64,000 nt of DNA, from contig WGMA01000067.1 in the NCBI GenBank assembly GCA_016125285.1, positions 1 through 64,000 on the forward strand, given 5' to 3'. The notes beneath the pieces are model-generated. The model made no database searches. It worked only from the letters and a program-made list of their open reading frames with translations, and had not been told where the DNA came from. The stretch is from Phycisphaera sp. (GTDB lineage Bacteria > Planctomycetota > Phycisphaerae > Phycisphaerales > Zrk34). The stretch's first letter is position 1. Every line of letters begins with the position of its first letter. Shown here one piece after another: positions 30,127 to 48,033 of this stretch. The position numbers and the translations under genes were made by a program.

Positions 30127-31965
30127 TCAGCGTTGTTCGATGGAGACGCGGTCGAAGTGATAGGTGGTGTTGGGCATGGCGATCAGGCCGACGGCCTCGC
30201 GCCACGCGGGGTTGCTGCGGGCGCGGAAGTAGTCGGTGTCGAGCGTGTTGGCCGGGCCGGACCAGTCGACGATGGGTTCGTCGTCGATGGTGGCGGAGAT
30301 GTGGACGGCGCGGCTCTTGCGGTGTGTGTCGACGGTGATGACGAGCGTGTGGGCGGTGTTGTCGAGGGCGTAGTCGTGGCGGGTGGGGTTGTCGGCGTGG
30401 TTGGCGGGGAGCCGCTTGATGCGCGAGAGGCCGGCGATCTGGCCGGGGTATCCGCCGACAACCAGCGCGACGCCGCGGTCGCCGCCGAGCGGCAGGTAGA
30501 CGGCGATGCCGTCCTCGCCGGCGGATCGCTGGAACGTGACCGACACGTCGTAGTTGTCGCGGACGATCATGGGGACGACGAGCTCGGCCTGCAGCTTGTC
30601 GGGCGCCTCGGCGAACAGCCCGTCGCCTTCGTAGCCCCACTCGCCGGACTGCGCGTGCCGCCTGGGCTGGACGAGGTTGAGCAGGTTGATCGACGCGGGG
30701 TTGAGCCGCGTGGACAGCAGGGGCGCGGCGACACGGGGCACCCTCGGGTTGGTGGTCGTTTCGGGGGCGGGCGGGTCCGCGGCGACGACGACGGCGGCGG
30801 CTTCGCGGACCTCCGGGTCGAACCAGCCGGACGCGACGGCGAGGCTGAACATCGCGACGATGCTGGCGAAGACCGCGGCGACGATGGCGACCTTCATGAC
30901 GCGGATGAGGCCGAGGCGTTCGGCGAACCCGGTGGCGACGGTGGGCTTGCCGCTGAGGTAGCTGTGCAGGTCGCGGGCGAGGTCGCCGGCGGTGAGGTAG
31001 CGATGCTCGGGGGACTTGGCCAGGGCCTTGAGCGTGATGGCCTCGATGGTGGGCTCGATGTCGGGTCGCGGCTCGCGCCACTCGAAGCGTAGGAAGCTGT
31101 GCTTGCGCGACTTGTCGGGCCGCGACGCGTTCAGCGCTTCGTTCATCGGCGTGGGGATCGCCTCGGTGATGTTGCGGAGCACGTCGGGCATGTCGCCGTG
31201 CACGACGTAGGGGAACGCGCCGGTGAGCATGCGGTAGAGGACGATGCCGAGGGTGTAGACGTCGGAGCGGATGTCGACGGTGTTGGTGTTGCCGCGGACC
31301 TGCTCGGGGCTGGCCCACGGCATGGTGCCGACGAACTGGCCGGTCATGGTCATGTCGTCCTCGATCATGCCGTCGCCCGCGGCGCGCTGCTTGGCGTGTC
31401 GGGCGAGGCCGAAGTCGAGGATGTGCGGGTTGCCGCTGTCGTCGATGAGGATGTTGGACGGCTTGAGGTCGCGGTGCATGATGCCGCGTGCGTGGGCGAC
31501 CTCGACGGCGTCGGCGATGCGCTTCATCAGGCGGAGCTTGTAGTCGATGGTCAGCGGGCCGAGCGGGTTGTCGAGCGACGTGCCGAGGTAGTGGTCGAGC
31601 TGCTTGCCGGGGACGTAGTCCATCACGAGGAAGAACTGTCCCTGCGGGGTGCGGCCGGTCTCGATGACGCCGACGATCGCGGGGTGATCGAGCGAGGCGA
31701 GGATGTTGCTCTCGCGTCGGAATCGGGCGAGGTCGGCGCTGGAGAAGATCGGGCCGCTGCGCAGGACCTTGACGGCGACGCGCTTGTCGGTGGCCTGCTG
31801 GATGGCGAGAAAGACGATGGCCTGACCGCCGCGCCCGATGACCTCGCGCAGCTCGTAGCCGGGCACTTCGGGCGTGGCTTCGAAGTCGCTGTCGATGGGG
31901 ATCTGCGTCTTCTGGTTGGCCCACGAGTCGTCGGGCCGCGAGGTTTTGCTGGACTGTGTGGCCAT
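30127..31965 (-). CDS. membrane-anchored Hanks-type serine/threonine protein kinase
   Basis: The 612-residue protein has a complete kinase domain (about 37-340): glycine loop EVIGRGGQAIVFLA, ATP lysine VAVKVL (Lys66), the catalytic loop MHRDLKPSNIL (Asp166), DFGLARH (Asp184), the PWASPEQV activation-loop end and DIRSDVYTLGIVL. A membrane helix follows (VAIVAAVFASIVAMFSLAVA), then a proline-rich linker and an extracytoplasmic beta-rich domain of about 170 residues (VSVTFQRSAGEDGIAVYLPLGG), perhaps sugar- or polymer-binding. It should phosphorylate cytosolic targets in response to an outside signal. It is divergent from the electron-transfer operon starting at 32288, so it may act on that locus, but this is only positional. 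Confidence 0.9.
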   Translation of the reverse strand: MATQSSKTSRPDDSWANQKTQIPIDSDFEATPEVPGYELREVIGRGGQAIVFLAIQQATDKRVAVKVLRSGPIFSSADLARFRRESNILASLDHPAIVGVIETGRTPQGQFFLVMDYVPGKQLDHYLGTSLDNPLGPLTIDYKLRLMKRIADAVEVAHARGIMHRDLKPSNILIDDSGNPHILDFGLARHAKQRAAGDGMIEDDMTMTGQFVGTMPWASPEQVRGNTNTVDIRSDVYTLGIVLYRMLTGAFPYVVHGDMPDVLRNITEAIPTPMNEALNASRPDKSRKHSFLRFEWREPRPDIEPTIEAITLKALAKSPEHRYLTAGDLARDLHSYLSGKPTVATGFAERLGLIRVMKVAIVAAVFASIVAMFSLAVASGWFDPEVREAAAVVVAADPPAPETTTNPRVPRVAAPLLSTRLNPASINLLNLVQPRRHAQSGEWGYEGDGLFAEAPDKLQAELVVPMIVRDNYDVSVTFQRSAGEDGIAVYLPLGGDRGVALVVGGYPGQIAGLSRIKRLPANHADNPTRHDYALDNTAHTLVITVDTHRKSRAVHISATIDDEPIVDWSGPANTLDTDYFRARSNPAWREAVGLIAMPNTTYHFDRVSIEQR

Positions 31966-32287: not shown

Positions 32288-34276
32288 ATGTACGCAGATC
32301 GTGAGTTGCGGGTAGTTGCGGGTGTACGCGCCCATCGTGCCGTAGGGCTTTTGGCCCTGGTTTTGACGATGGTGCTGGGGATCCTTTCGGGCCCGGCGCG
32401 TGCGGCCGACGACGCGAAGGCCGCCGACACCGACGCCGCCGCCGACAAGAAGATGGCCGAGAACCCCGACGAAGCGCACCTTCAGGTGTTCCTCAAGGAC
32501 CGGTTCCCGTCGGCCACCGCGTGCGGCGATTGCCACCCCACGCAGTACCGTCAGTGGTCCGTCTCGCAGCACGCCTACGCCCAGATGAGCCCGGTCTTCA
32601 ACGCCATGCACGGCAAGATCCTCAAGCTCACCAACGGCACCAACGGCGACTTCTGCGTCCGCTGCCACACGCCGGTCGGCATGAACCTCGAAGAGCCGGA
32701 GTTCATGTCGAACATCGACCGCAGCCCCACCAGCCGCGAGGGTATCACGTGCATCGTCTGCCACCGCCTCAACCAGTCGTACGGCAAGCTGTCGGGTCGG
32801 CTGGCGATCGTGGAGGGCGACCTGACGCAGCCGATCTACGGGCCGAAGGGCAACCCGGCGGAGCTGAAGAAGACGATCGAGAAGGGCGGCCTGGTCACCG
32901 ACAAGGACAAGGCCGGCCGTCAGGTCCACGGCGACGTCAAGAAGTTCTTCCAGCTCAACACGTCCGGTTTCTGCGGCATCTGCCACGACGTGACGCTCGT
33001 CAACGGCTTCCGTCTGGAGGAGGCGTTCAGCGAGTTCAAGAACTCGCCGGCGGCGAAGGCGGGCATCAGCTGCCAGGACTGCCACATGGGCAAGGAGCCC
33101 GGCCGCATCGTCGCGGACATCAACGACCCGGACTTCGACTACAAGAACTACGCCCACGGCCCGGCCGCGAAGGTCGGCTCGCTGGAGACCAAGCCGCGCA
33201 AGCTCACGAACCACATGTTCGTCGGCCCGGACTACTCGGTGCTGCCGCCGTCGCTGTTCCCGCTGAACCTCGCGGCGATCCGCGAGGAGTCGGAGAAGGA
33301 CGACCCGGCCGCGCACGGCATGGCGACCATCCGCAACTGGCTGGACTTCAACTGGCGTGCGGGTTGGGGCACGGACAAGTTCGAGAACGAAGCGCCGAAG
33401 GACTACAAGTTCCCCGCGCGGTGGGAGTCGATCGACGACCGCTACGACGCGTACGAGATCGTCGTCCTGCCGAACCTCAAGCTGTTGCTGGAGATGAAGA
33501 AGCAGCGTCTGAAGCTGCTGCGTAACGGCTACAAGCTCGGCGAGATCGAGACGGTCAAGGCCGACGACGGCGGCATCAAGTTCAAGGTCGAGGTCCGCAA
33601 CGGGACCAACGGCCACAACGTGCCGACGGGCTTCGACGCCGAACGCCTCGTGTGGCTGCACACGACCGTGACCGACGCCGACGGCAACGTCGTGTTCGAG
33701 TCCGGCGACCTCGATCCCAACGGCGACCTGCGAGACCTGCACTCGTCGTACGTGCACAACCACGAGCTGCCGCTGGACGATCAGCTGTTCAGCCTCCAGA
33801 GCAAGTTCATCACGCGTAACATCCGCGGCGGCGAACGCGAGCAGGTGCTGGCGGTCAACTACAGCCCGAGCCCGCTGCCGTTCCTCCGTCCCGAGACGCG
33901 TCCGACGATCCTCTACGGACGTCCGGCCGGCGCCCGCAAGCACAAGATGGGCATCGAGCCCGACGGCACGCGCATCGCGTCGTACTCCGTCGACGGCAGC
34001 AAGCTGTCCGGCAAGGGGCCTTACAAGGCGGTCGTGCAGCTCAAGGCGGGCATGGTTCCCGTGAATCTGCTCAACGAGATCAAGGATGTGGGCTTCGACT
34101 ACAACATGTCGGCCCGCCTTGTCGCCGACAACCTGGTCAAGGGTTATGTCGATAAGGAAGGCAAGCCGATCATCTGGAACCCCGATTCCAAGGACCCCGA
34201 GGAGAACGTGGTCAACGGCCACCAGGTCGTGTGGGAGCGCGAGGTCCAGTTCAACGTACACGGCACGGCGGAGTGA
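32288..34276 (+). CDS. pentaheme c-type cytochrome, periplasmic
   Basis: ATG 32288 is preferred over ATG 32281 because GGGAG lies about 8 bases before it. A signal peptide (VGLLALVLTMVLGILSGPARA) precedes the mature protein. Five CXXCH heme sites are visible at residues 79-83 (CGDCH), 123-127 (CVRCH), 155-159 (CIVCH), 229-233 (CGICH) and 262-266 (CQDCH), all in the first 270 residues. The remaining about 390 residues have no heme motif and include a beta-rich stretch (FKVEVRNGTNGHNVPTGF). That layout occurs in multiheme cytochromes of the cytochrome c-554 / octaheme superfamily. It is the first gene of the seven-gene electron-transfer locus, with a 101-base gap to the next gene. Partners and redox role are inferred from context. 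Confidence 0.88.
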   Translation: MYADRELRVVAGVRAHRAVGLLALVLTMVLGILSGPARAADDAKAADTDAAADKKMAENPDEAHLQVFLKDRFPSATACGDCHPTQYRQWSVSQHAYAQMSPVFNAMHGKILKLTNGTNGDFCVRCHTPVGMNLEEPEFMSNIDRSPTSREGITCIVCHRLNQSYGKLSGRLAIVEGDLTQPIYGPKGNPAELKKTIEKGGLVTDKDKAGRQVHGDVKKFFQLNTSGFCGICHDVTLVNGFRLEEAFSEFKNSPAAKAGISCQDCHMGKEPGRIVADINDPDFDYKNYAHGPAAKVGSLETKPRKLTNHMFVGPDYSVLPPSLFPLNLAAIREESEKDDPAAHGMATIRNWLDFNWRAGWGTDKFENEAPKDYKFPARWESIDDRYDAYEIVVLPNLKLLLEMKKQRLKLLRNGYKLGEIETVKADDGGIKFKVEVRNGTNGHNVPTGFDAERLVWLHTTVTDADGNVVFESGDLDPNGDLRDLHSSYVHNHELPLDDQLFSLQSKFITRNIRGGEREQVLAVNYSPSPLPFLRPETRPTILYGRPAGARKHKMGIEPDGTRIASYSVDGSKLSGKGPYKAVVQLKAGMVPVNLLNEIKDVGFDYNMSARLVADNLVKGYVDKEGKPIIWNPDSKDPEENVVNGHQVVWEREVQFNVHGTAE

Positions 34277-34299
34277 GTTGCCAGCCGCATAAGCAACCG

Positions 34300-34334
34300 G
34301 CGCCCGCTGCGAGGGGAACGATCAGCGGCGGGCG
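34300..34334 (+). other. intercistronic hairpin between cytochrome and porin genes
   Basis: CGCCCGCTG starting near 34300 can pair with CAGCGGCGGGCG at about 34323-34334, with a small internal bulge. No T-run follows, so it is more likely an mRNA stability or partial-attenuation element than a full terminator. Confidence 0.4.
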
Positions 34335-34377
34335 TGCGGGCATTCACGAATAAAAGATCGATCGATAGGGTCAAGAC

Positions 34378-36006
34378 ATGTATAAGCATCAGGGGTGGTG
34401 GAACATCGTTTGGAACAAGCCCGGTCGCGTCGCGGCGCTGAGCACGGCGATGGTGCTGGCGCTGGGCGTGTGCGGTGGGGCGGTACACGGCGCCGACGAG
34501 AAGCCGGCCGACGACAAGCCCGCCGAGGCCGCCGAGGCCAAGCCCGCCGAAAACACCGACACGCCCAGCGAAGAGAAGGCGATGTACGAGGAGCACGCGA
34601 TGGACGGTGACCACGGTCACCCCATCGCCGGCCCGTTCGGCATCTTCCTGACGCCCGAGCAGCGCACCAGCCGCATCTCCGACGCCGCGGTGGTCGACGT
34701 TCAGGCCGACCCGCGCATGAAGCGGCCGAAGCCGATCATCGAGCTCGGCAACCCGTTCCTCGGCTCGGGCAACATCGGCCGCGGCATCGAGATGCCCGGC
34801 GGCTCCGTCTGGCAGCCCTCGCTGCTGGTCTTTGGTCAGTACCGCTCGGCGATCCAGGCGTTCAACGACGGCCGCGACACCTACGCCGAGTGGGCCAACA
34901 GCCTCGACATCTTCGGCAACATCCAGCTGACCGGCACCGAGCGCGTCGTCGTCGGCTTCAACCCGCTGGCCGAGGACGGCCGGTTCTCCGGCTACGAGTT
35001 CAGCCCCGACTTCAACAGCGACGACTGGAAGGACGCGACCAACGCCGGGCTGACCACGCTGTTCTTCGAGGGCGACCTCGGCGAGATCTTCAGCGACCTC
35101 GATCCCGCCGACCGCAAGAGCATCGACCTCGGCTTCTCCGTCGGTCGTCAGCCCATCGTCGTCCAGGACGGCATGCTGATCAACGACACGATGGACTCGA
35201 TCGGCATCATCCGCAACACGCTGCTGCCCCCCGGCGGCACCGACCTGCAGGTCACCTTCCTCTACGCCTGGGGCGACATCGACCGCAACGACAACCGTCA
35301 GCACGACGGCACGCACCTGCTGGGCATGTTCTGGGCCGCGGACTATCCGTTCAGCACGATCAACGCCGACTTCGTGTACGTGATCGACGCCGACGGCAAC
35401 GACGACGGATTCTTCAAGCTCCCCGGCGCCGACGAGGGCTCGGGCGACGGGTTCTTCTGGGGCCTCAGCGGCGTGCAGCGTATCGGTCAGTTCAACACCA
35501 CGCTCCGCGCACTCGGCTCGCACGCGATCAAGGGCGAGTCCGTCGAGGTGCACGACGGCTACCTGTTCTTCGGCGAGCTGTCGTGGACGCCCGCCTGGAC
35601 GCACGACAACGTCTACGTCAACGGCTTCGTCGGCATCGACGAGTTCTCCTCCGCGGCGCGCGGCCCGACCGCCGGCGGCCCGCTCGGTCGCACCGGCGTC
35701 CTGTTCGCCGCCCTCGGCCTCGGTCGATACGGCGCGCCGCTCGGCAACCGCGCCGACAACTCCTACGGCGGCGCGATCGGCTACCAGTGGTTCATCGACG
35801 AGCAGGCGCGCAAGCAGCTGCTCGTCGAGTTCGGCGGACGCAACGGCTACAGCGACGACCAGAACGACGGCCAGATCGCCCTCGGCGCCCGCTACCAGCA
35901 GGCCATCGGGCAGCATATGGTGTTACAGTTCGACACCTTTGGCTCGCTGAACGAGGGCCGCGACCCGGGCTACGGCGGGCGTGTCGAAATCCGCGTCGAC
36001 TTCTAA
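34378..36006 (+). CDS. outer-membrane beta-barrel (porin-like) protein
   Basis: The 542-residue protein has a long N-terminal signal (VAALSTAMVLALGVCGGAVHG), then a charged Lys/Glu/Ala/Pro segment (about 40-75) containing HAMDGDHGH. Alternating beta-strands follow (SLLVFGQYRSAIQAF, NIQLTGTERVVVGFNPL, TVYVNGF-like strands, LLVEFGGRNGYSDDQND). The last residues are RVEIRVDF, ending in Phe as the beta-barrel insertion signal requires. The length and loops suggest a barrel of 16 or more strands. Its place between multiheme cytochrome genes makes a porin-cytochrome conduit possible. It could also simply be a solute porin co-transcribed with the locus. Confidence 0.78.
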   Translation: MYKHQGWWNIVWNKPGRVAALSTAMVLALGVCGGAVHGADEKPADDKPAEAAEAKPAENTDTPSEEKAMYEEHAMDGDHGHPIAGPFGIFLTPEQRTSRISDAAVVDVQADPRMKRPKPIIELGNPFLGSGNIGRGIEMPGGSVWQPSLLVFGQYRSAIQAFNDGRDTYAEWANSLDIFGNIQLTGTERVVVGFNPLAEDGRFSGYEFSPDFNSDDWKDATNAGLTTLFFEGDLGEIFSDLDPADRKSIDLGFSVGRQPIVVQDGMLINDTMDSIGIIRNTLLPPGGTDLQVTFLYAWGDIDRNDNRQHDGTHLLGMFWAADYPFSTINADFVYVIDADGNDDGFFKLPGADEGSGDGFFWGLSGVQRIGQFNTTLRALGSHAIKGESVEVHDGYLFFGELSWTPAWTHDNVYVNGFVGIDEFSSAARGPTAGGPLGRTGVLFAALGLGRYGAPLGNRADNSYGGAIGYQWFIDEQARKQLLVEFGGRNGYSDDQNDGQIALGARYQQAIGQHMVLQFDTFGSLNEGRDPGYGGRVEIRVDF

Positions 36007-36030
36007 GCAACACGAGTTTCGGAGCAGTGC

Positions 36031-37299
36031 ATGCAGTCTCTTGCCGCCAACCTGTGGATCGTCGGCGCGATCGCCGTGGGCCTGGTCATGGTCTACGCGC
36101 TGGTGGCGCTGGTCGACGTCGTCGGTCGCGTCTACGGCGCCAAGGCCCAGCGCGAACGCGAGCTGGCGCTGCTCGAACAGCGTGTCGCCGCGGCGCGCAA
36201 GCAGCGTGACGCCCAGCAGCAGCAGTCGCTGTCGTGGACCGGCTGGCGCAAGTTTGAGGTCCGTCGCAAGTTCGTGGAGACCGGCGACAACCAGCTGTGC
36301 TCGTTCTACCTCTACCCGCACGACGGCAAGCCGATCCCCACGTTCGCGCCCGGCCAGTTCCTCACGTTCCAGCTCAACATCCCCGAGCAGTCCCGCCCGG
36401 TCGTGCGCTGCTACTCGCTGTCCGACGCGCCCCGCGCCGACCACTACCGCGTGACCATCAAACGCGTGCCCCCGCCGCGCAACAACCCCGACGCGCCGCC
36501 CGGCGTGGCGTCCAACTTCTTCCACGATCAGATCAACGAGGGCGACCTCGTCGACTGCAAGGCGCCCGGCGGGCAGTTCCACATCGACATGGCGTCCAAC
36601 ACGCCGGTCGTGCTCATCGGCGGCGGCGTCGGGCTGACCCCCGTGCTGAGCATGCTCAACGCCATCGACGAGGCCGGCACCGACCGCGAGGTGTGGTTCT
36701 TCTACGGCGTCCGCCACAAGCTCGAGCACGCCATGCGGACACACCTCCGTGAGATCGCGCAGCGTCGGCCCAACGTCCACCTGCACGTGTGCTACTCCAA
36801 CCCCGAGCGCGAGGACAAGCAGGGCAAGGACTACGAGCACGCCTGCCGCGTCAGCGTCGACCTGTTCAGGAAGGTCCTGCCGTCGAGCAACTACGAGTAC
36901 TACATGTGCGGCCCGCCGCCGATGATGGAGCAGCTCGTCAAGGACCTCGAAGAATGGGGCGTCCCGGCGAACAAGATCCACCTCGAGAAGTTCGGCCCGG
37001 CGTCCGGTCGGCAGGGCAAGAAAGAGATCAAGCCCACGTCCGGCGGCCCGCAGATCGTCTTCAAGAAGTCCGGCGTCACCGTGGGCTGGAGCGCCGAAGC
37101 GAACAACGTCTGGGAGTTCGCCGACGCCAACGGCGTGCGGATCGACTGCGGCTGCCTCGAGGGCAACTGCGGCACGTGCGCCACGGCGATCCTGAAGGGC
37201 GAGGTCGAGTACAACAAGAAGCCGGAATTCGAGGTTGAGGCCGGTTCCTGCCTGACCTGTTGCTGCAAACCGAAGGGCGACCTCGAACTCGACGCCTAG
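36031..37299 (+). CDS. membrane-anchored FAD/[2Fe-2S] NAD(P)H oxidoreductase
   Basis: The 422-residue protein starts with a membrane helix (residues 9-31) and a short coiled coil. It then has a ferredoxin-reductase FAD domain (PGQFLTFQL, RCYSLSD with Arg126) and an NAD(P)-binding domain (IGGGVGLTPVLSML at 197-210, YMCGPPPMM near 291-299). It ends in a plant-type ferredoxin domain with Cys375-X4-Cys380-X2-Cys383 and a distal Cys in GSCLTCC (407-411). The domains resemble those of NqrF, but the [2Fe-2S] domain is C-terminal as in PaaE-type reductases. It would accept hydride from NAD(P)H on the cytosolic side and pass single electrons to membrane partners. It lies 24 bases after the porin gene. 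Confidence 0.9.
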   Translation: MQSLAANLWIVGAIAVGLVMVYALVALVDVVGRVYGAKAQRERELALLEQRVAAARKQRDAQQQQSLSWTGWRKFEVRRKFVETGDNQLCSFYLYPHDGKPIPTFAPGQFLTFQLNIPEQSRPVVRCYSLSDAPRADHYRVTIKRVPPPRNNPDAPPGVASNFFHDQINEGDLVDCKAPGGQFHIDMASNTPVVLIGGGVGLTPVLSMLNAIDEAGTDREVWFFYGVRHKLEHAMRTHLREIAQRRPNVHLHVCYSNPEREDKQGKDYEHACRVSVDLFRKVLPSSNYEYYMCGPPPMMEQLVKDLEEWGVPANKIHLEKFGPASGRQGKKEIKPTSGGPQIVFKKSGVTVGWSAEANNVWEFADANGVRIDCGCLEGNCGTCATAILKGEVEYNKKPEFEVEAGSCLTCCCKPKGDLELDA

Positions 37300-37313
37300 C
37301 GCAAACGTTATAT

Positions 37314-37342
37314 TTGACACGGCCGCACAAGGGCCGATCATG
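37314..37342 (+). promoter_or_regulatory. possible internal promoter before the tetraheme cytochrome gene
   Basis: A perfect TTGACA box lies at 37314-37319. At 17 bases' spacing the -10 position reads ATCATG, a weak match. The gap to the next start (37400) is about 100 bases, unlike the tight spacing elsewhere in the locus. Confidence 0.25.
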
Positions 37343-37399
37343 GCTGAGTCACACCGATGGGCAATTGGCGAATTACGACACGATAAGGAAGGGATTACC

Positions 37400-38539
37400 A
37401 TGGAAACGGGTAAGCGGATGATGAGTGGTGGCTTGCTGGCGGGGATCCTCGGCGGAACGCTGCTCGCGGCGGGGCTGACGCTGTCGCCGGCCGCGCACGC
37501 CGACGAGAAGGTCGACGCGGCGCGTGCGGCGATCACGCTGTCGGCGACGCTGACGCCCGAGGAATACGAGAAGCGCGCCGAGGACGTGATCGGTCCCGAG
37601 AAGTTCGATAACAACTGCGCCTCGTGCCACGCGCTCGAGGCCGAGGCCTGGCAGCAGACCACGCACTACGCCACGTTCCAGACGCGTCACCGCACCGACG
37701 AGGCCGAGAAGATCCTCAAGGCGATGGGGCAGCGTTCGATGAAGCGTGCCGGCGAGTGCATGCACTGCCACTACACCTCGGTGCTGCAGCGCGGCAAGGC
37801 CACGCCGACCTGGGGCGTGTCGTGCGAGTCGTGCCACAGCCCGGCGAAGAACTGGGTCAACATCCACAACAAGGTCGGCGGCGTGGCCAGCGGCGAGACG
37901 CTCAAGTGGGGCAAGGGCAAGGACGAGGCCCCCGACGCCCGCGCCAAGCGCATCGGCGCCGCCGAGGCCGCGGGCATGATCCACGCGGGCATGATCTATG
38001 ACATCGCCCGCAACTGCTTCAGCTGCCACACGGTGCCCAACGAGGAGATCGTCAACAAGGGCGGCCACAAGGCCGGCAGCGACTTCGACCTCGTCGCCTG
38101 GTCGCAGGGTCAGGTCCGCCACAACTTCGTCACGTCGCCCGGCGCGCCGGACAACGCGACCAACGAGCCGGTCAGCACCGAGCGTCGCCGCCTGTACTAC
38201 GTGGTCGGCGCCCTGGTCGATTACGAGACGACGCTGCGGAACCTGTCGAACGTCAAGGAGAAGGGCGGGGCGTTCCACAAGGCGATGGTCGAGCGTGCGA
38301 ACAAGGTGCGCGACAGGCTCGACGCGATCGCCGGCAAGGTGGACCTCGGCGACCTGAAGGCCGCGATCGAAGCGGCGCCCAAGCCGATGACCGAGGACAC
38401 CGCCGTCTCCGCGGACCTGGCCGACAAGCTGGGCGCGGCGTCGAAGAAGTTCTCGCAGATGCACGACGGCTCGAAGCTCGCGGGCGTGGATCCGCTGATC
38501 CCGACCGAGGTCAAGGGCGACGTGTACAACAAGAAATGA
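37400..38539 (+). CDS. tetraheme c-type cytochrome, c-554-like, exported
   Basis: ATG 37400 follows AAGGAAGGG and begins a signal peptide (LLAGILGGTLLAAGLTLSPAAHA). The frame upstream is not needed. The 379-residue protein has four CXXCH sites at residues 73-77 (CASCH), 120-124 (CMHCH), 142-146 (CESCH) and 206-210 (CFSCH), with a His-rich middle (HAGMIYDIARNC). The spacing and number resemble the cytochrome c-554 family, which takes electrons from hydroxylamine oxidoreductase in nitrifiers, but no such enzyme is encoded here. The C-terminal 160 residues are helical (ERANKVRDRLDAIAGKVDLGDL). It is probably a soluble periplasmic electron shuttle of this locus. Confidence 0.87.
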   Translation: METGKRMMSGGLLAGILGGTLLAAGLTLSPAAHADEKVDAARAAITLSATLTPEEYEKRAEDVIGPEKFDNNCASCHALEAEAWQQTTHYATFQTRHRTDEAEKILKAMGQRSMKRAGECMHCHYTSVLQRGKATPTWGVSCESCHSPAKNWVNIHNKVGGVASGETLKWGKGKDEAPDARAKRIGAAEAAGMIHAGMIYDIARNCFSCHTVPNEEIVNKGGHKAGSDFDLVAWSQGQVRHNFVTSPGAPDNATNEPVSTERRRLYYVVGALVDYETTLRNLSNVKEKGGAFHKAMVERANKVRDRLDAIAGKVDLGDLKAAIEAAPKPMTEDTAVSADLADKLGAASKKFSQMHDGSKLAGVDPLIPTEVKGDVYNKK

Positions 38540-38557
38540 CGCGCCGTGTCGGCGCGT
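38539..38557 (+). other. small hairpin at the end of the tetraheme gene
   Basis: ACGCGCC and GGCGCGT pair around a 5-base loop directly at the stop codon. No T-run follows. The distance to the next start is 84 bases, so transcription probably continues. Confidence 0.35.
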
Positions 38558-38641
38558 TGTGAACAACCCAACAGCCACGGTCGAAGGCCGGACCGCACAC
38601 GCCGGCGCCGCGCCGAGCGGTGATCCGACGCAGGGGACTCG

Positions 38642-40453
38642 ATGCCCGGAGCTCAGACCTTCGAAAAACCCGAGCGGTGGGACCTGCCCTTCAGCCAGGA
38701 CCTGCCCAATCCCGACGAGCGTCGGGACATGACGGAACACGACATCGGTCGACTCATGTCGATCGAGCCGTTCTGTCACATGGACCCGGCCAACTTCCCC
38801 GACCGCCTGCCGCTGCGGGGCATCCTCGCCAACGACACGCGCATCCGCCGCTACAACAACGGCGACGTGATCGTGCGGCAGGGCGATTACGGCAACTCCG
38901 CGTTCCTCATCCTCAACGGCAAGGCGCGCGTCATCCTCGAGACGCTCGACCCGAAGCTGGTCGGCCGGCAGGTCACCAAGAAGCGCACCGCGTGGGAGTC
39001 GCTGGTCAGCGTGATCACGCGCCCGCGCATGCCCGAGGTCCGCGACACGAGCAAGTACCCGCAGGGCCACCGCGAGCGTGAGCAGACCCAGCAGCGCGGC
39101 GCCAACGAGGTCGCGTTCGTGCAGGACGTCAGCAACGTGCTGCGGGTCGACTCCGACCTGTTCAACAAGGCGCGCAGCGAGGTGATGCAGACCGGGCAGG
39201 TGTTCGGCGAACTGGCGGCGCTGGGGCGCATCCAGCGCTCGGCGACCGTCGTCGCCGACGGCGAGGCCGTGCTGCTGGAAATCCGCTGGCAGGGGCTCCG
39301 CGACCTGCGCAAGTTCGACGAGACGCTCCGCAAGCACATCGACGATCGCTTCCGCAAGCGGGGTCTGGCCGCGACGCTCCGCGCCGCGCCGCTGCTCAAT
39401 AAGCTCACCGAGGGCGCCGTCGCCAAGGTCGCCCAGGCCGCGATCTTTGAGACCTACGGCTCGTACGACTGGTACGGCTCGTACCAGCAGCTGCGCAAGC
39501 GCGACGAGGACCCGCTCAAGAACGAGCCGGTCATCGCCTCCGAGGGGCACTACCCCAACGGCCTGCTGATCATCCGTGCCGGGTTCGCCCGCCTGTCGCA
39601 CCGCCGCGGCAACGGCGAACAGACCTACAGCTACCTCGGCAAGGGGCAGGTGTACGGCCTGGCGGAGCTGGCGTACAACGCGAAGAACCCCCACAAGATG
39701 GTGCCGCTGAGCTCGACGCTCCGCGCGGTGGGCTACGTCGACGTCGTGCACATCCCCACGAAGCTCTTCGAGCAGATGATCCTGCCGCACATCCCCGCCG
39801 ACGAGATCCCGCCGCTGCCGGCCTGGTCGACGACAAGCGACACGCCGCCGGTCGCCGACAACGTGCCCCCGGCGCGCGGCGGATCGGCCGCGACGACGAG
39901 CAGCAAGCAGCTGAACCCCGGCCTGACCGAGTTCCTCGTCGAGAACCGCTTCATCAACGGCACCGCGACGATGGTGATCGACCTCGACCGCTGCACGCGC
40001 TGCGACGACTGCGTCCGGGCATGCGCCACCGGGCACACCAACAACCCGCGGTTCATCCGCCACGGCGTGGTGTTCGATCACTTCATGGTCGCCAACGCGT
40101 GCATGCACTGCGCCGACCCGGTGTGCATGATCGGCTGCCCCACGGGCGCGATCCACCGCACGGCCGAGGGCGGCGTCGTGGTGATCAACGACGTGACCTG
40201 CATCGGCTGCGGCACGTGCGCCGCCAGCTGCCCCTACGACAACATCCGCATGGTCGATATCCGCGACGAGGACAACCCCGACGCGCTGCTCGTCGATCCC
40301 CGCGCCGGCAAGCCCATCGCCAAGGCCACCAAGTGCGACCTGTGCAACGAGCACCACGGCGGACCGGCCTGCCAGCGGGCCTGCCCCCACGACGCGCTCA
40401 AACGCGTCGACATGCGTGAACTGGAGCCCCACCTGCCATGGCTGAACCGGTGA
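38642..40453 (+). CDS. fusion of two cyclic-nucleotide-binding domains with a four-cluster [4Fe-4S] ferredoxin
   Basis: The 603-residue protein has no signal peptide and should face the cytosol. CNB domain 1 (about 55-240) carries an insert of roughly 60 residues and keeps the phosphate-binding cassette VFGELAALGRIQRSATVVA (187-205). CNB domain 2 (about 250-385) has only a degenerate cassette (VYGLAELAY, then STLRAVGYVDVV). From residue 440 on there is a DmsB/HybA/NrfC-type electron-transfer domain with sixteen cysteines in four motifs (451-461, 487-499, 520-530, 565-581), enough for four [4Fe-4S] clusters. It could gate electron flow by cAMP or a similar ligand. The last 16 bases overlap the cytochrome-b-like gene, so translation is coupled. 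No molybdopterin catalytic subunit accompanies it. Confidence 0.88.
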   Translation: MPGAQTFEKPERWDLPFSQDLPNPDERRDMTEHDIGRLMSIEPFCHMDPANFPDRLPLRGILANDTRIRRYNNGDVIVRQGDYGNSAFLILNGKARVILETLDPKLVGRQVTKKRTAWESLVSVITRPRMPEVRDTSKYPQGHREREQTQQRGANEVAFVQDVSNVLRVDSDLFNKARSEVMQTGQVFGELAALGRIQRSATVVADGEAVLLEIRWQGLRDLRKFDETLRKHIDDRFRKRGLAATLRAAPLLNKLTEGAVAKVAQAAIFETYGSYDWYGSYQQLRKRDEDPLKNEPVIASEGHYPNGLLIIRAGFARLSHRRGNGEQTYSYLGKGQVYGLAELAYNAKNPHKMVPLSSTLRAVGYVDVVHIPTKLFEQMILPHIPADEIPPLPAWSTTSDTPPVADNVPPARGGSAATTSSKQLNPGLTEFLVENRFINGTATMVIDLDRCTRCDDCVRACATGHTNNPRFIRHGVVFDHFMVANACMHCADPVCMIGCPTGAIHRTAEGGVVVINDVTCIGCGTCAASCPYDNIRMVDIRDEDNPDALLVDPRAGKPIAKATKCDLCNEHHGGPACQRACPHDALKRVDMRELEPHLPWLNR

Positions 40454-41274
40454 TCGCCATCACGAAACGACGGGCCCTCGGCGGCTCGCTCGCACTCGTC
40501 GCGATCGTCGCGATCGGCGTGCTCATGCTGTCGCGCGGCCTGGCGCTGCGCGACACCGCGTTCTTCAGCGGCTGGCTACTGCTGCTGATGTGCCTGTTCC
40601 TCGCCCTCTACAACCTCCGCAAGAAGCTGACGTATCCGCCGCTGATGCGATCGGCGACGTGGCTGCAGCTGCACGTGTACGTCGGCCTCGTGTCGATCGC
40701 CGTGTTCGTCATGCACAGCGGGTTCAAGTGGCCCACCGGCGCCTTCGAGACGCTGCTGTGGCTGTTCTACACGGGCACCGCCGCCAGCGGCCTGCTCGGC
40801 CTGTACATCACCCGCACCTTCCCGCCGTTCCTCACCCGTCGCGACGAAGAGATCATCTTCGAGCGCATCCCGCGCCTGCGGCGTGAGGTCCGCGAGCAGG
40901 CCGAGGCGCTGATCGTCGAGTCGGTCAAGCAGGCGGACACCACGACGCTTTCGGACTTCTACGCCAAGAGCCTGGCCACGTACTTCGCCACGCCGCGCAA
41001 CTACTGGCACCACGTGTTCGAGTCACGCGTGCCGGTCAAGCGGATGTGCGCCGACCTCAAGCGGCTCGATCGCTACCTGTGCGACAAGGAGAAGGCGATC
41101 GCCGCGCAGCTCGACGAGCTGATCCGCGCGAAGGACAACCTCGACTATCACTGGGCGGTGCAGGGCACGCTCAAGGGCTGGCTGTTCATCCACATCCCGC
41201 TGACGTACGGGCTGCTGCTGTTCGCGGTGGTGCACGCCGTGCTGGTGCACGCTTTCGACGGGAGTGTGTCGTGA
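40438..41274 (+). CDS. five-helix membrane protein, probable di-heme cytochrome b
   Basis: The 278-residue protein has membrane helices at about 13-34, 41-60, 76-96, 103-126 and 248-272, with a charged cytosolic segment between helices 4 and 5. Helix 3 has His79 and His93, and helix 5 has His252 and His266 (plus His271). Both pairs are 14 apart, the spacing used by bis-histidine b hemes stacked across the membrane. No quinone-site signature is obvious. It overlaps the ferredoxin fusion gene by 16 bases and the decaheme gene by 4 (GTGA), so the three products are probably made as a complex linking cytosolic clusters to periplasmic hemes. Confidence 0.82.
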   Translation: MAEPVIAITKRRALGGSLALVAIVAIGVLMLSRGLALRDTAFFSGWLLLLMCLFLALYNLRKKLTYPPLMRSATWLQLHVYVGLVSIAVFVMHSGFKWPTGAFETLLWLFYTGTAASGLLGLYITRTFPPFLTRRDEEIIFERIPRLRREVREQAEALIVESVKQADTTTLSDFYAKSLATYFATPRNYWHHVFESRVPVKRMCADLKRLDRYLCDKEKAIAAQLDELIRAKDNLDYHWAVQGTLKGWLFIHIPLTYGLLLFAVVHAVLVHAFDGSVS

Positions 41275-43388
41275 GGCATCCGCTGCAACAGACCGGCTAC
41301 AAGGACAGCGCGTACGAGCGTCCGAACCAGAAGTACCAATGCGGCTGGGCGGAGGACGGCCGTCCGTGCCGCGCCGGCCCGACACGCAAGGGCGGGTGCA
41401 CCGCTGCGGCGCAGGCGTCCTGCACGCCGCGCAAGGAAGGCGACCGCTGGCACTGCGGCCGGCTCGAGGCGTTCGGCGGTGCGTGCGAGCACGGCCCGAT
41501 GCCCGACGGCGCCTGCTGTCACCCCGAGCCCGAGCACCAGGTCTGTCAGCCCCGGCTGTGCCACCGCGCGCGGCGCGGTCGGCTGACGCTGCTCAGCGCC
41601 GGCCTCGTGCTGGCGTTCCTGACGATGATGCTCGCCGGGCCCTGGTCGCTGGCGTTCGTCTCGCCGGGCAAGCTGACCGCGGCGCACTCGGCGATCGAGC
41701 CCGCGCCAGGCGACGCCAACAACTGCAGCGCGTGTCACAGCGCCGCAGACGGCTCCTCGGCGAACTTCCTCGCCGCGGCGTTCCGCGATCCGCCGGCGTC
41801 GCACGAGGGCATGGCCGGCGACAGCACCAAGTGCGTCGCGTGCCACTTCACCGCCGCCGGACGCGACCGCGCTCATCTCATGGCCGCCCACAGCATGGAC
41901 CCCGCGCAGCTCAAGCTGCTGGCCGAGTCGCACCCGGCCGCGAAGCTGCTCTCGGCCGCGCCGGCCACCGGCGACCAGGCGCTCGCGGCCTTCACCGGCG
42001 CGCCCGACCCCGCGGCCCTCGCCTGCTCGACGTGTCACCACGAGCACCGCGGACGCGACTTCGCGCTGACCGCCATGTCCGACACCTCGTGTCAGGTCTG
42101 CCACAGCGGTCGCTTCGCGTCGTTCAACGACGGCCACCCCGAGTTCGGCCTCGTGCCGCGCCACCGCTCGGGCATCGCCTTCAATCATCAGACCCACTAC
42201 GAAGCGAACTTCGGCGACACCAAGTTCGACTGCACCCGCTGCCACGTCGCCGACGCCAAGGGCTTCAGCATGCTGGTCAAGCCGTTCGAGCAGGCGTGCG
42301 CCGGCTGCCACAACCAGGGCCGCGACGACCATCACGGCGACGAGATCAAGAAGAACTCGATGATCGTGTTCCAGCTGCCCGAGATGGAGGTCGCCGAGGG
42401 CGTGTACTGGCCGAAGGACACGGCGGTCGGCGAGCGGATCAAGCCGCTGGTCCGCCTGCTGCTGGCCGGCGACGAGAAGGCCCGCCCGGCGTTCAAGGCG
42501 TTCACCGAAGACCTCGACGCGGCCGGTGTGCCGCTGGACTGGCTGCCGAAGGATCCGAAGCTCGCGACGCAGCTCGCCGCGGCGATGAAGCGGCTCGTGC
42601 TCGACCTGACCGACCCCTCCGAGGCGCCCACCCGCATCGCCGAGCGGCTGGCCATCGCGCTCGACACCAAGCCCGACGACCCCCGCGTCGTCAAGCTCGC
42701 CGAGCAGCTGGCCACCATGCAGTTCCCGCTGACCGCGTGGCAGACCACCTGGCTCAAGCAGGTCGCCGCCGACGCCGACGGCAAGAAGGTCGACCTCGAC
42801 GAGAAGCCCGAAGAGCCGAAGTGGGACCCGGCCGATCTGCCCGCCGGCTGGTACGTCGACCCCGCCGACGTGTCGGTGAACTACGGCCCGACCGCGCACG
42901 CCGACCCGCTGCTGCACAACCTGCTCGACCTGCTCGCCGCCCACGCCGATCCGACCTCGCTGCCCAGCGACCCCAAGGCCGAGATCCCGCCGTCGAAGAA
43001 CGACGCCGAGTTCCTCGCGCGCGTCCGCACGATCGCGTTCCAGGACCTGGCGTCGAAGGACTTCGGCGGGGCGCTCTACGCCTCGTGCGTCCGCTGCCAC
43101 ACGCTCGATAAGGTCGGCGCCGGCTACCGCATCAACTGGACCGTCGTCGGCCGCTACCCGCTGACCACCGGCTTCGGCAAGTTCAACCACTCGCCGCACA
43201 TGTCGATCCTCACCGAGCCGGACAACTGCCGGCACTGCCACGAGATCGCCGGCAAGGACGCGGCCCCCGCCAGCGTGCAGCACGGCTTCGTCGCTCACCG
43301 CAGCGAAACCTGCGCCGCGTGTCACGCCCCCGACAAGGCGCCCAACAACTGCGTCACCTGCCACTTCTACCACATGAACCGCCCGTGA
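41271..43388 (+). CDS. membrane-anchored decaheme c-type cytochrome with cysteine-rich cytosolic head
   Basis: The GTG at 41271 overlaps the preceding stop. The frame upstream of it is a shadow. The 705-residue protein has an unusual N-terminal region (1-100) with ten cysteines at 24, 33, 43, 51, 62, 72, 82, 83, 92 and 97, in CGW, CRAGP, CEHGPMPDGACC and similar settings. One membrane helix (about 104-131) follows and then a periplasmic part with ten CXXCH sites: residues 152, 188, 252, 274, 321 and 343, plus four in the last about 110 residues (CVRCH, CRHCH, CAACH, CVTCH). A helical insert without hemes (about 360-560) separates the two heme groups. The N-terminal cysteines could bind a metal or cluster and receive electrons in the cytosol. 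It is the last gene of the operon. Confidence 0.88.
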   Translation: MRHPLQQTGYKDSAYERPNQKYQCGWAEDGRPCRAGPTRKGGCTAAAQASCTPRKEGDRWHCGRLEAFGGACEHGPMPDGACCHPEPEHQVCQPRLCHRARRGRLTLLSAGLVLAFLTMMLAGPWSLAFVSPGKLTAAHSAIEPAPGDANNCSACHSAADGSSANFLAAAFRDPPASHEGMAGDSTKCVACHFTAAGRDRAHLMAAHSMDPAQLKLLAESHPAAKLLSAAPATGDQALAAFTGAPDPAALACSTCHHEHRGRDFALTAMSDTSCQVCHSGRFASFNDGHPEFGLVPRHRSGIAFNHQTHYEANFGDTKFDCTRCHVADAKGFSMLVKPFEQACAGCHNQGRDDHHGDEIKKNSMIVFQLPEMEVAEGVYWPKDTAVGERIKPLVRLLLAGDEKARPAFKAFTEDLDAAGVPLDWLPKDPKLATQLAAAMKRLVLDLTDPSEAPTRIAERLAIALDTKPDDPRVVKLAEQLATMQFPLTAWQTTWLKQVAADADGKKVDLDEKPEEPKWDPADLPAGWYVDPADVSVNYGPTAHADPLLHNLLDLLAAHADPTSLPSDPKAEIPPSKNDAEFLARVRTIAFQDLASKDFGGALYASCVRCHTLDKVGAGYRINWTVVGRYPLTTGFGKFNHSPHMSILTEPDNCRHCHEIAGKDAAPASVQHGFVAHRSETCAACHAPDKAPNNCVTCHFYHMNRP

Positions 43389-43609: not shown

Positions 43610-44287
43610 TTACTGGGTCGGGATCACGTTCAGGTCCGCCGGGGCGTCGGAGATCCAGCGGTAACCCTGCGCGGGCACGAGCTGGCCGCTGTCGGTGATC
43701 AGCACGTTCGGGATCGCCTCGACGCTCAGGTCGGTCGGGTCGGGCGACACCCAGCGGTAGCCGGGCGCCGGAGCGAGTGCGCCCTCGGCGTTGACGGTGT
43801 AACGCGGGTCGCGCTGGACGGTGTAGTCGCCCTCGCCGGCCGACTCGTCGGACGCCCACATGTAGCCGACCGCCGGACGCAGCTGACCGTCCGCCGTCGC
43901 CACGACGTTCGGGATCATCTCGACCTGCAGCGAACTCGGGTCGTCGGAGACCCAGCGGTAGCCCAGCGCCGGCACCCACTGGCCGTCTTCGGTCGACAGC
44001 ACGTTGGGGTTGTCGGGCAGCCGGTCACCCGGCACGGCCTGCACGCCGAGGTTCTCGTCGTTGGCGTCGACCCAGCGGTAGCCGGGCACGGGCACCCACT
44101 TGCCGTTGCCGTCGGCGACGACGTTCGGCGTGCCGGGATACGTCTCGGCGGTCGGCGCCGGGCCGGGCTTGGGCTGAATCGAGCTCAGCTTCATCGACTT
44201 CGACGCACAGCCGAATCCCAGCGTGCACATCAGCACGCACGCCAGCAGCAGGCTCCACTCGTTGCGATTCATCGGGAAGTAGCGCAT
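43610..44287 (-). CDS. lipoprotein made of five GYRW-type repeats
   Basis: ATG 44287 has AGGAG at the right distance; a longer upstream frame lacks this. The 225-residue protein has a lipoprotein signal ending in the lipobox LGFGC (Cys27). The mature part consists of five units of about 35-40 residues, each with a GYxW core: VPVPGYRWVDA (about 66-76), VPALGYRWVSD (106), RPAVGYMWASDE (138), APAPGYRWVSP (172) and VPAQGYRWISD (204). Each is preceded by an IPNV/NPNV...DGQ segment. I do not recognise the family. The repeats suggest a small beta-rich solenoid or binding array on the outer or inner membrane. A terminator follows. Confidence 0.75.
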   Translation of the reverse strand: MRYFPMNRNEWSLLLACVLMCTLGFGCASKSMKLSSIQPKPGPAPTAETYPGTPNVVADGNGKWVPVPGYRWVDANDENLGVQAVPGDRLPDNPNVLSTEDGQWVPALGYRWVSDDPSSLQVEMIPNVVATADGQLRPAVGYMWASDESAGEGDYTVQRDPRYTVNAEGALAPAPGYRWVSPDPTDLSVEAIPNVLITDSGQLVPAQGYRWISDAPADLNVIPTQ

Positions 44288-44370
44288 GGGTTCTCCTAGC
44301 AGAAGGTTAGCCTTGGAGATTCTACACAAAGGATTCTGGAAGTGCACTGCGACGGGCCACATTCGTCGCG

Positions 44371-46662
44371 TCAGCCGATCGTGTCGTCCGCCACCGGGGC
44401 GTGGCCGTGCACCTTCACCGGGTTGATCTCGCCCTCGATCTGCACCGATCCGTCCGCCTCGACCACGCACACCGGGATCTTGCCCGCGTCCCAGTCCGCC
44501 AGCGGCAGCAGCGGCCAACGCTGCGAGCCGTGCCGGTCCGGCTTGACCGCGAAGTACTCGCCGTCCAGCCGGTCGATCTGCAGCCGCGGCCCGGCCAGGT
44601 AGTACCCCAGCGCCGTCGCCCCCCGCGGGTAGAACGCCAGCTCGTTGCCGATATACGTGTCGATGTACCCGAAGCTGTTCGACCCCGTGTTCGCGTACAC
44701 CAGCAGGTCCCAGTAGTTCGGGTCCAGCACCATCAGCTCCACGTCGAGGTAGCGCCCGGTGAAGTCACGCCAGAGGTTCGACGAGATCCAGATGTTGGTC
44801 GAGTCGCCCGACGTGTGCCCGCAGCCGTAGGGGCACAACGCCTCGCGCTGGCTGTTGACCATGTCGACGGTCAGGCGGTTCTGGTCGAAGGCGATGGGCT
44901 GGGCGATCAGCTGCGGCAGCAGCAGCCCGTTCGAGGTGTAGATCGAGTAGTCGTCCCAGCCGACGAGTTCCTGTGTGGGCATCGCCTTGCCGGTCCACGA
45001 GTCGATCAGGCCGCGCGTATCGCGGTCGACGGACACGACGTAGTGATCCTCGATCCACGCCGCGTGCTCGATCAGCGGCACCGACTCCGCCGAGGCGTTG
45101 CGGCACAGGTCCGCGGTCTCGCGGTCGCCGGCGCGGCTCAGCAGGTCGGCCGCGGCGTCCAGCGCCGCGACGCGCTTGATCGCCAGGTACGTCTGCTTCC
45201 GCGCCAGCCTTACCGCGTCGGACCCGTCGAGCGTGTTCGACGTGCCGTGGTCGCTGAACCCGTCGCGGTCGCCGTCCGACCACAGCAGGTACATCGCCAG
45301 GCGGCGCAGGAACGCCGCGTGCTTCGTCAGCGGCTTCGTGTCGCCGGTCCAGTGCGCGTACGCCTGCATCAGCAGCAGGTAGTTGGCGTTCTCCTCGACG
45401 GGCATCGAGTAGTCGGGCTTGCGGCCGTTGATCCGCAGCCCGCGCCCCGTGTCGTGATTGAGGATCAGACCGCCCGACTCCTTGTGCTCCGTCGAGTGGC
45501 TCGCGTGCGCCCACTCGTCGAGCTCCACCGCGAGCAGGCGCGGCCAGAGCGTCAGGTAGAACAGCGACACGTTGTACTCGACGTCGACCGTCGAGTGGTA
45601 CATGCTCGAACCCTCGGCGACGCTGAACCACTCGCGCGGCTCACCGCCGGGCCCGCCGCCCACCTCGCACCAGAACGTGTTCGCCAAAAAGCTCTGGAAC
45701 GCCATCGTTAGCAGGTGCGCCTGCGACTTGCTCAGCGGCGCCTGCTGCAGGAGCTTCTCGAACCGACGCGACAACGCGAGGTATTCGTCGCGGTTGGCCT
45801 CGGCGTGCGCGAGCACCTCCTCGGCCGAGTCCCAGTGACGCGTGTAGCGGAACCGCGCCGGTGTGCCGCGCACGTCCATCACCGCGTCCGACGTGTGCGC
45901 CGCCCACACCAGACGCCACTTCACGCCGCTGCCCTCGTCCGTCACCGGCATCCGCAGCGTCAGCCCCGCGGCGCCGTCGGCGTCGGTGAACGGCTCGGCG
46001 CCCTCGTTGAGGCTGCGCAACCGCTCCGTCGCCCGCGCCGTGCCGATGCTCGGTTCGTCACGCACACCCGCCCCGGCGCCCGTCGCCGCGGCCTTCGCGC
46101 CCGTACGCGACTTCCTGGCGCTGACCGCGATCGTGCCGTTGTCGCTGCACGCCGGCTTGTACCGCGGGCACAGCTCCACGTCGTACCGCAGCGACAGCTC
46201 GTCCGGCCGGGCCTCGATCACCGTGTCCCCGCGCTTGAGGCGGATGAACAGGTCGACGAACTCCGGCGGGTTGGTGAAGCGGCGCAGACGCACGCGCGGG
46301 GCGGCGGTCACGCGCAGCTCGACGTACATCGCCGGCATCACGCAGAGCTTCTCGTTCTGCGGGTAGAACGGGCTGTGGATGTTCATCTCGAACCGCAGGC
46401 CGTGCTGCTCGCTGTAGCCGCGGAACGTCATGGAGTTGATGCGTTCGAACTGCTCGACGCCGTAGAGGTCGGTCATCGACGGGTCGGCGGTGAAGGGCAG
46501 CACGCGCCGCGTGCCGTCGGGCTCGACCAGTCCGACAGCCAGATCGAGCGGGGCGTCGAGAAAACGCCCGAGCGTCGAATGCATCACCCGCCGCTTGCCG
46601 GGCTCGAACAGCAGGCCGAACCGGCTGCCGAACCGCGCCATGGGCCATGTCATCATCAGCAT
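44371..46662 (-). CDS. clan GH-O glycosidase-like protein (GH52/GH116 type)
   Basis: The 763-residue protein has no signal peptide and a beta-sandwich-like N-terminal half, then an (alpha/alpha)6-like half. WFSVAEGSSMYHSTVDVEYN resembles the nucleophile region of GH52 beta-xylosidases, and TLDGSDAVRLARKQTYLAIK the acid/base region (SLDVSLGQ in GH52). FYPRGATALGYY matches a GH52 C-terminal motif. GH116 of the same clan is an alternative. The expected activity is an exo-glycosidase such as beta-xylosidase or beta-glucosidase. GGAG lies 10 bases before ATG 46662; ATGs at codons 3 and 4 are possible starts. The gene is isolated, 83 bases upstream of the lipoprotein gene on the same strand. Confidence 0.62.
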   Translation of the reverse strand: MLMMTWPMARFGSRFGLLFEPGKRRVMHSTLGRFLDAPLDLAVGLVEPDGTRRVLPFTADPSMTDLYGVEQFERINSMTFRGYSEQHGLRFEMNIHSPFYPQNEKLCVMPAMYVELRVTAAPRVRLRRFTNPPEFVDLFIRLKRGDTVIEARPDELSLRYDVELCPRYKPACSDNGTIAVSARKSRTGAKAAATGAGAGVRDEPSIGTARATERLRSLNEGAEPFTDADGAAGLTLRMPVTDEGSGVKWRLVWAAHTSDAVMDVRGTPARFRYTRHWDSAEEVLAHAEANRDEYLALSRRFEKLLQQAPLSKSQAHLLTMAFQSFLANTFWCEVGGGPGGEPREWFSVAEGSSMYHSTVDVEYNVSLFYLTLWPRLLAVELDEWAHASHSTEHKESGGLILNHDTGRGLRINGRKPDYSMPVEENANYLLLMQAYAHWTGDTKPLTKHAAFLRRLAMYLLWSDGDRDGFSDHGTSNTLDGSDAVRLARKQTYLAIKRVAALDAAADLLSRAGDRETADLCRNASAESVPLIEHAAWIEDHYVVSVDRDTRGLIDSWTGKAMPTQELVGWDDYSIYTSNGLLLPQLIAQPIAFDQNRLTVDMVNSQREALCPYGCGHTSGDSTNIWISSNLWRDFTGRYLDVELMVLDPNYWDLLVYANTGSNSFGYIDTYIGNELAFYPRGATALGYYLAGPRLQIDRLDGEYFAVKPDRHGSQRWPLLPLADWDAGKIPVCVVEADGSVQIEGEINPVKVHGHAPVADDTIG

Positions 46663-46848: not shown

Positions 46849-47014
46849 TCTCGGCGTCTTTGTGGTGGTGCGAGTGACACGGGAGAAAGTCGGCGGGTCT
46901 GTGCCGCCGAGCAGACGTTCGTGCTGGCCGACGTTCAGCGTATGACGACGGTGGGCACGGGTACCTCGTCCGCACGGATGAGTGGGGAATACCCAGCAAC
47001 AGAAAGAGGCGACG

Positions 47015-47986: not shown

Positions 47987-48033
47987 CGCCGGCGGATCAA
48001 CCATCATCAGACTGCAAACACCGAGGAATCAAC

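Follow-up and report, generated by a model that had tools for sequence, protein, structure and literature searches.

The gene cluster type PCC4, described by He et al. in 2017 and first noted in Fe(II)-oxidising Zetaproteobacteria and in genomes recovered from filters that remove Fe/Mn, comprises a porin, periplasmic cytochromes of 4, 5 and 10 hemes, a redox gene that precedes the tetraheme gene, and a membrane protein ("IMP") with five helices, two WX3HX13H motifs and SGXXG; in its Subgroup II, which has Planctomycetes among its hosts, a pfam13247 Fe-S gene is located upstream of the IMP gene (PMC5566968). A role in extracellular electron transfer was advanced there as a hypothesis, with electrons modelled to flow from an outside donor to quinone (PMC5566968). 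Extracellular electron transfer has also been proposed for Verrucomicrobial clusters of porins and multiheme cytochromes (He et al. 2017, PMC5615132). Here, we analyse seven genes (g1 to g7) of Phycisphaera sp., located at 32288-43388 of a stretch of 64,000 nucleotides (nt; assembly GCA_016125285.1, contig WGMA01000067.1, forward strand), the whole of which is referred to as the window. The locus is very probably a planctomycete member of PCC4 Subgroup II, and the new element reported here is evidence, drawn from sequence comparison, that the module may be under on/off control by a cyclic nucleotide signal, cAMP or cGMP.

The original prediction, made from the letters of this DNA, had described seven codirectional genes with 5+4+10 CXXCH sites, the last three genes overlapping, and all of this was confirmed: the seven open reading frames (ORFs) are encoded on the + strand, CXXCH occurs 5 times in g1, 4 times in g4 and 10 times in g7, the successive gaps from g1 to g5 measure 101, 24, 40 and 102 nt, and the two junctions that follow overlap, g5/g6 by 16 nt and g6/g7 by 4 nt. 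The start of g7 was placed at the GTG at 41271, the longer ORF from 41046 merely beginning at the first start after a stop. A Pfam scan returned matches in g1, g3, g4, g5 and g7, and none in g2 and g6. The genes, together with two elements of g5, are as follows:

32288..34276, + strand: g1, secreted pentaheme cytochrome c with a cytochrome c554-like heme domain and a heme-free C-terminal domain of ~390 residues
34378..36006, + strand: g2, putative outer-membrane beta-barrel (porin)
36031..37299, + strand: g3, membrane-anchored NAD(P)H/FAD reductase with a C-terminal [2Fe-2S] domain
37340..38539, + strand: g4, periplasmic tetraheme cytochrome c, c554-like (PF13435, 9e-12)
38642..40453, + strand: g5, cytosolic protein carrying a pair of cyclic-nucleotide-binding domains and, in a HydN/DmsB-like part, four [4Fe-4S] sites
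39203..39244, + strand: phosphate-binding cassette of the first cyclic-nucleotide-binding domain, FGELAALGRIQRSA (g5 residues 188-201), with G189, E190 and R199 invariant in 19 relatives
39992..40384, + strand: four [4Fe-4S] motifs of g5 (residues 451-581), C451/454/457/461, C487/490/495/499, C520/523/526/530 and C565/568/577/581
40438..41274, + strand: g6, five-helix diheme cytochrome b-like membrane protein (the IMP of PCC4)
41271..43388, + strand: g7, Cys-rich cytosolic N terminus, one membrane helix and a periplasmic decaheme domain

The assignment to Subgroup II follows the published feature description, and is made because g6 combines both WX3HX13H motifs and SGLLG with five modelled helices and because g5, a PF13247-matching gene, directly precedes g6 with a 16-nt overlap. 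Further agreement is provided by the 4/5/10-heme counts, which are constant across relatives (5 CXXCH in 38/38 scored relatives of g1, 4 in 35/35 scored relatives of g4, and 10 in 39/41 relatives of g7, the remaining two being cut by contig ends) and by the putative porin g2 with its signal-like N terminus and C-terminal Phe. The g3 gene, positioned immediately 5' of g4, may correspond to the published redox gene. The module is real, conserved and already catalogued in silico, so that its earlier designation as "undescribed" has to be withdrawn: He et al. had reported this set in 2017 under the name PCC4 Subgroup II and had listed Planctomycetes as hosts (PMC5566968). A difference lies in the cyclic-nucleotide-binding domains, which are absent from the main text of that paper (0 occurrences).

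These tandem domains of g5 had also been missed in the original prediction. The protein matches PF00027 (E=5e-23) and PF13247 (E=1.3e-10), and its PF00027 domain with the GE...R phosphate-binding cassette is of the CRP/PKA fold type; the cassette is kept in nearly all of 45 relatives, as judged by pattern or by eye, and is absent from the second domain (GLAELAYN...). Seven of 25 genomes have a class III cyclase gene (PF00211) within 10 kilobases (kb) of g6, whereas the number of cyclases and the size of the genomes would predict 0.36 (p = 3e-8); the 25 genomes were picked by the authors, non-randomly, from loci in hand and two of the seven (G176 and G245) share a genus; upon removal of the three discovery genomes a cyclase was still nearby in 4 of 22 (p = 3e-4). 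Because the cassette is retained and cyclase genes are enriched near the module, gating of the module by a cyclic nucleotide (cAMP or cGMP) is supported, as a hypothesis and not as a result. It is tentatively proposed that PCC4-type complexes would act as ligand-gated wires, in which the messenger produced by a nearby cyclase would, by binding to the Fe-S subunit, directly start or stop the passage of electrons from NAD(P)H towards the cell surface. No paper tying cyclic nucleotides to such clusters was found in the open-licence full-text literature.

That the cyclic-nucleotide-binding domains are structural relics, which neither bind a nucleotide nor respond to one, appears unlikely: the cassette-less second domain and the existence of g5-less variants are consistent with such a loss, whereas even very divergent relatives keep the Gly, Glu and Arg of the first cassette unchanged, and an excess of cyclase genes near the module is seen in several lineages that are not related to one another. 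Control by phosphorylation, via FHA domains or neighbouring kinases, is possible; at loci L033 and L035 a protein-kinase-type gene is divergent from the cluster and g5 begins with an FHA-like (phosphothreonine-binding) stretch, and kinases are abundant in planctomycetes. In the window, too, a serine/threonine kinase-like gene is present at 30127-31965 (- strand), divergent and just upstream of g1.

The original prediction would have been undermined by scattered homologues, and these were instead found to be co-conserved. A search with g6 identified a relative in 40 of 199 Planctomycetota genomes, and in 23 of the 25 neighbourhoods read first the relatives of g5, g6 and g7 stand side by side (exceptions L050 and L051; among later loci, g5 is displaced or was not seen in L141, L142 and L144). 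Across 392 Planctomycetota genomes, 34 hold a close relative of g6, 49 one of g1 and 32 both (Fisher p = 3e-32), and in 24 of these 32 the two are on one contig within ~15 kb, according to a reading of two coordinate lists. All seven genes in the order g1-g2-g3-g4-g5-g6-g7 are found in the window, L052, L045-L047, L117, L118, L120-L123, L134 and L171, with L036 and L119 near-complete. The planctomycete cases come from three or more families, and the complete cluster L171 belongs to a genome from the class of a metagenome-assembled genome (MAG) titled "Pseudomonadales", its taxonomy being given by that title only, and agrees with the published host range of PCC4. Separately, a contig of 6.8 kb (L053) from a MAG with Pseudomonadales in its title carries a g7 relative and a partial g5 which are closer to the genes of the window than are those of L032, a genome in the window's own family, and this closeness would reflect either contamination or horizontal transfer. 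No additional conserved protein family or catalytic subunit was seen in ~20 kb around related loci, where the neighbours were not all scanned against a family library; a known catalytic subunit constantly present just outside, which would also have told against the original prediction, was accordingly not seen.

Variation in gene content is nevertheless found. In planctomycete family f29, g1-g2 are divergent beside g4-g7 (L040-L042, L124-L126), and several loci (L039-L041, L124-L126) have g4-g7 but no g3. Loci L130-L132 retain g1, g2, g4, a short cytochrome b and g7, with no g3 and no g5, a version reminiscent of Subgroup I of He et al., which has no Fe-S gene. In some genomes g5-g7 occur without nearby g1-g2 (e.g. 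L032, L033, L044), and g1-g2 remain neighbours even when far from g5-g7 (L137, L145, L146). A recurrent second gene pair was observed near cytochrome b/decaheme genes (L048:13214-18729, L171:13625-19353, L172:168-5746, L174:14315-19899, L055:2-5541), consisting of a protein of ~1000-1280 aa with 10 CXXCH, which contains LVIVD repeats in all four cases scanned (L048, L055, L171, L172), and an adjoining protein of 590-820 aa without any family match; this pair may represent another outer-membrane partner for the same inner-membrane trio.

A counterpart of the g5-g6-g7 trio is encoded by the Sphingobium plasmid AP027331, with a protein containing paired cyclic-nucleotide-binding domains and [4Fe-4S] sites, a two-motif IMP gene and a membrane-anchored 10-heme protein adjoining one another in the same order. 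It differs from the locus of the window in that the g5 homologue is fused N-terminally to a pyridine-nucleotide FAD oxidoreductase, a fusion also present in L172 and there likewise adjoining cytochrome b and decaheme genes, in that the decaheme protein has an FHA-like N terminus, in that no pentaheme/porin pair was seen nearby, and in that a phosphodiesterase gene annotated cpdA follows the trio. A tblastn search of plasmids with g7 gave no match, the Sphingobium homologue existing but being too diverged for tblastn, and no match was obtained in the viral contigs searched.

Regarding the inner-membrane components, g3 has a predicted N-terminal membrane helix and matches PF00175 (5e-21), PF00970 (8e-6) and PF00111 (3e-8), and it has FAD, NAD and [2Fe-2S] domains, in accordance with the [2Fe-2S]/FAD reductase originally assigned. 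The 16 Cys of g5, arranged in four CxxCxxC(x)nC groups and invariant in 19 relatives, fit the up to four [4Fe-4S] clusters proposed earlier; since g5 has in addition no detected membrane helix, it is a plausible cytosolic entry for electrons onto g6. In g6, the key residues of W75/H79/H93, SGLLG and W248/H252/H266 are invariant in 20 relatives, both WX3HX13H motifs and [ST]GXXG are present in 36/36 closer relatives, and the four invariant His have the right spacing for the two b hemes that had been considered probable. The AlphaFold model of g6, of moderate confidence with a predicted local distance difference test (pLDDT) score of 78, contains five long hydrophobic helices and a helical domain at 141-240. 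By positive-inside reasoning, the N terminus and this domain would be cytosolic, which would place H79 and H252 towards the cytosol and H93 and H266 towards the periplasm. Fold searches with the model returned uninformative long helical bundles as top matches, with no FRD/NOX or bc-type protein among the matches listed, and a sequence-profile search likewise gave no informative match. The g7 protein contains c7-like heme repeats according to Pfam, and its Cys-rich N-terminal domain (near-invariant C24, C33, C43 and GP37, N-terminal to the helix at 103-125) had been absent from the first account.

For the outer part of the module, g1 matches PF13435 (E=2e-10) and, by profile, PDB 5ze8 "cytochrome c552" (E=2e-16). 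Besides the five CXXCH His, H95, H214, H309 and H443 are invariant and H64 is nearly so, giving nine invariant His and one nearly invariant; bis-His ligation of all five hemes is therefore likely, and this number of conserved His makes g1 more likely a carrier than an enzyme. In L046, L047 and L118, which form one genus-level group, g1 is present in tandem duplicate 5' of the barrel gene. The claim of an outer-membrane barrel holds in part: g2 has a signal-like N terminus with a hydrophobic segment at 18-37, ends in a Phe that is invariant in 32 relatives, and almost always sits after g1 among the related loci, a terminal Phe being typical of outer-membrane barrels. The fold itself was not confirmed, as no Pfam or NCBIfam match was obtained at E up to 0.1, structure prediction from two sequences reached a pLDDT of 27, and a simple, uncalibrated amphipathicity scan yielded 28-35 peaks depending on the threshold, which gives no strand number.

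The best explanation of these observations, to which we assign a probability of roughly one half, is a wire coupled to NAD(P)H and gated by a cyclic nucleotide, which would lead to the periplasm and outer membrane. Following this explanation, g3 would oxidise NAD(P)H and pass electrons to the [4Fe-4S] chain of g5 at the cytosolic face; g5 would dock on g6, and the two stacked b hemes of g6 (H79/H252 and H93/H266) would carry electrons across the inner membrane to the membrane-anchored decaheme g7; g4 and then g1 would convey them across the periplasm as far as the outer-membrane barrel g2, and an acceptor outside the cell or in the periplasm would be reduced there; and cAMP or cGMP bound to the N-terminal domains of g5 would gate the flow post-translationally. 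From these data we infer the carrier order, the outward direction, coupling to NAD(P)H instead of quinone, the gating and the acceptor. We argue for NAD(P)H as the cytosolic partner, rather than or besides quinone, because of the presence of g3 here and of the oxidoreductase fusions of g5 in AP027331 and L172. The original prediction envisaged a path that leads without a gap from NAD(P)H in the cytosol to the periplasm or outer membrane, with no recognised terminal enzyme, and this is supported by domain content and by co-conservation in many genomes. Molybdoenzymes of the host are encoded elsewhere in its genome and do not adjoin the module. The host genome, which is 97%-complete, encodes two haem-copper oxidases and RuBisCO was not found in it; for these reasons the host is more like an aerobic heterotroph than a Calvin-Benson-Bassham cycle autotroph, and outward electron disposal is weakly favoured over autotrophic metal oxidation.

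Several points weigh against this gated, outward wire. In the window no cyclase gene lies beside the module, the six cyclase genes of the host being on other contigs. As g3 is missing from L039-L041 and L124-L126, NAD(P)H entry is not obligatory there, and as L130-L132 lack g3 and g5, gating is not universal. Direction and acceptor are unproven, and so is the putative passage of electrons across the outer membrane, given the unsuccessful barrel model.

The occurrence of PCC4 in Fe(II) oxidisers and Mn-filter genomes favours inward flow, in which an extracellular donor, e.g. Fe(II) or Mn(II), would be oxidised and electrons would reach the quinone pool via g6 as proposed by He et al. (PMC5566968). 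The His pattern of g6 is also compatible with quinone-reactive cytochromes b. We nevertheless consider this direction rather doubtful for the present module, since the FAD/[2Fe-2S] reductase g3, the four [4Fe-4S] sites and the NAD(P)H-oxidoreductase fusions would be without a role unless flow were reversed to NAD(P)+, the host is without RuBisCO, and the module is common in planctomycetes generally. Equally improbable in our judgement is the absence of any outer-membrane conduit, with g2 an ordinary solute porin and g1 and g4 feeding a soluble periplasmic reaction or acceptor. The barrel of g2 would span ~430 residues past its N-terminal extension and is nearer to porins of 16-18 strands than to the MtrB sheath of ~700 residues, g1 holds five hemes only, and g5-g7 occur without nearby g1-g2 as noted above; on the other side, g1 and g2 are neighbours in nearly all relatives, even far from g5-g7, which suggests a joint function, and g1 appears to be bis-His throughout and hence a carrier. 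A hidden terminal enzyme in g1, which has a distant match to MccA (E=0.004) and weak matches to NrfA-type models, was provisionally set aside as the conserved His suggest five bis-His hemes, and a chance origin of the CXXCH motifs was rejected, as composition predicts 0.005, 0.006 and 0.07 of them in g1, g4 and g7, respectively, against the 5, 4 and 10 counted.

Compared with other described systems, the locus resembles MtrAB/MtoAB and the Geobacter porin-cytochrome complexes in combining an inner-membrane cytochrome, periplasmic multiheme carriers and a barrel, yet differs from MtrAB/MtoAB/PioAB in that g2 matches no Pfam or NCBIfam family, where those systems have an MtrB-type porin, and in that the decaheme g7 is anchored in the inner membrane by a helix preceding its heme domain instead of being soluble or barrel-sheathed. 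The Verrucomicrobial clusters, from a PVC phylum, likewise have a porin adjoining multiheme cytochromes, but their periplasmic cytochromes have eight hemes and their porins are predicted to have 20 transmembrane segments or more (PMC5615132). PCC3 shares the IMP motifs with PCC4 and is distinguished by very large extracellular and periplasmic cytochromes, with no Fe-S gene named among its components (PMC5566968). IMP-like genes that match the g6 profile weakly were noted at L173, L176 and L177 beside cytochromes with 21-24 CXXCH, an arrangement resembling PCC3; their retrieval by this profile suggests that the membrane proteins of PCC3 and PCC4 are distantly homologous, for which He et al. reported no significant overall homology (PMC5566968).

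Elsewhere in the window, a putative lipoprotein-like ORF with several W(V)PxxGYRW-type repeat units lies directly 3' of the module (43613-44518, - strand), and two adjoining repeat-rich ORFs are located at 46982-49146 (+ strand), the first ending in VAAGGGNI repeats and the second containing pentapeptide-type repeats followed by a KDAPKDAPK stretch.

Clusters of the PCC4 type occur widely among planctomycetes and are shared between phyla, and the present analysis adds three testable handles to the 2017 main text, namely a point of entry for NAD(P)H, a switch operated by a cyclic nucleotide, and the g5-g6-g7 inner-membrane trio, which is found with or without the pentaheme/porin pair. If true, the switch would link second-messenger signalling directly to electron transfer in the cell envelope, and post-translational control of trans-envelope electron transfer by cyclic nucleotides would extend to several phyla.

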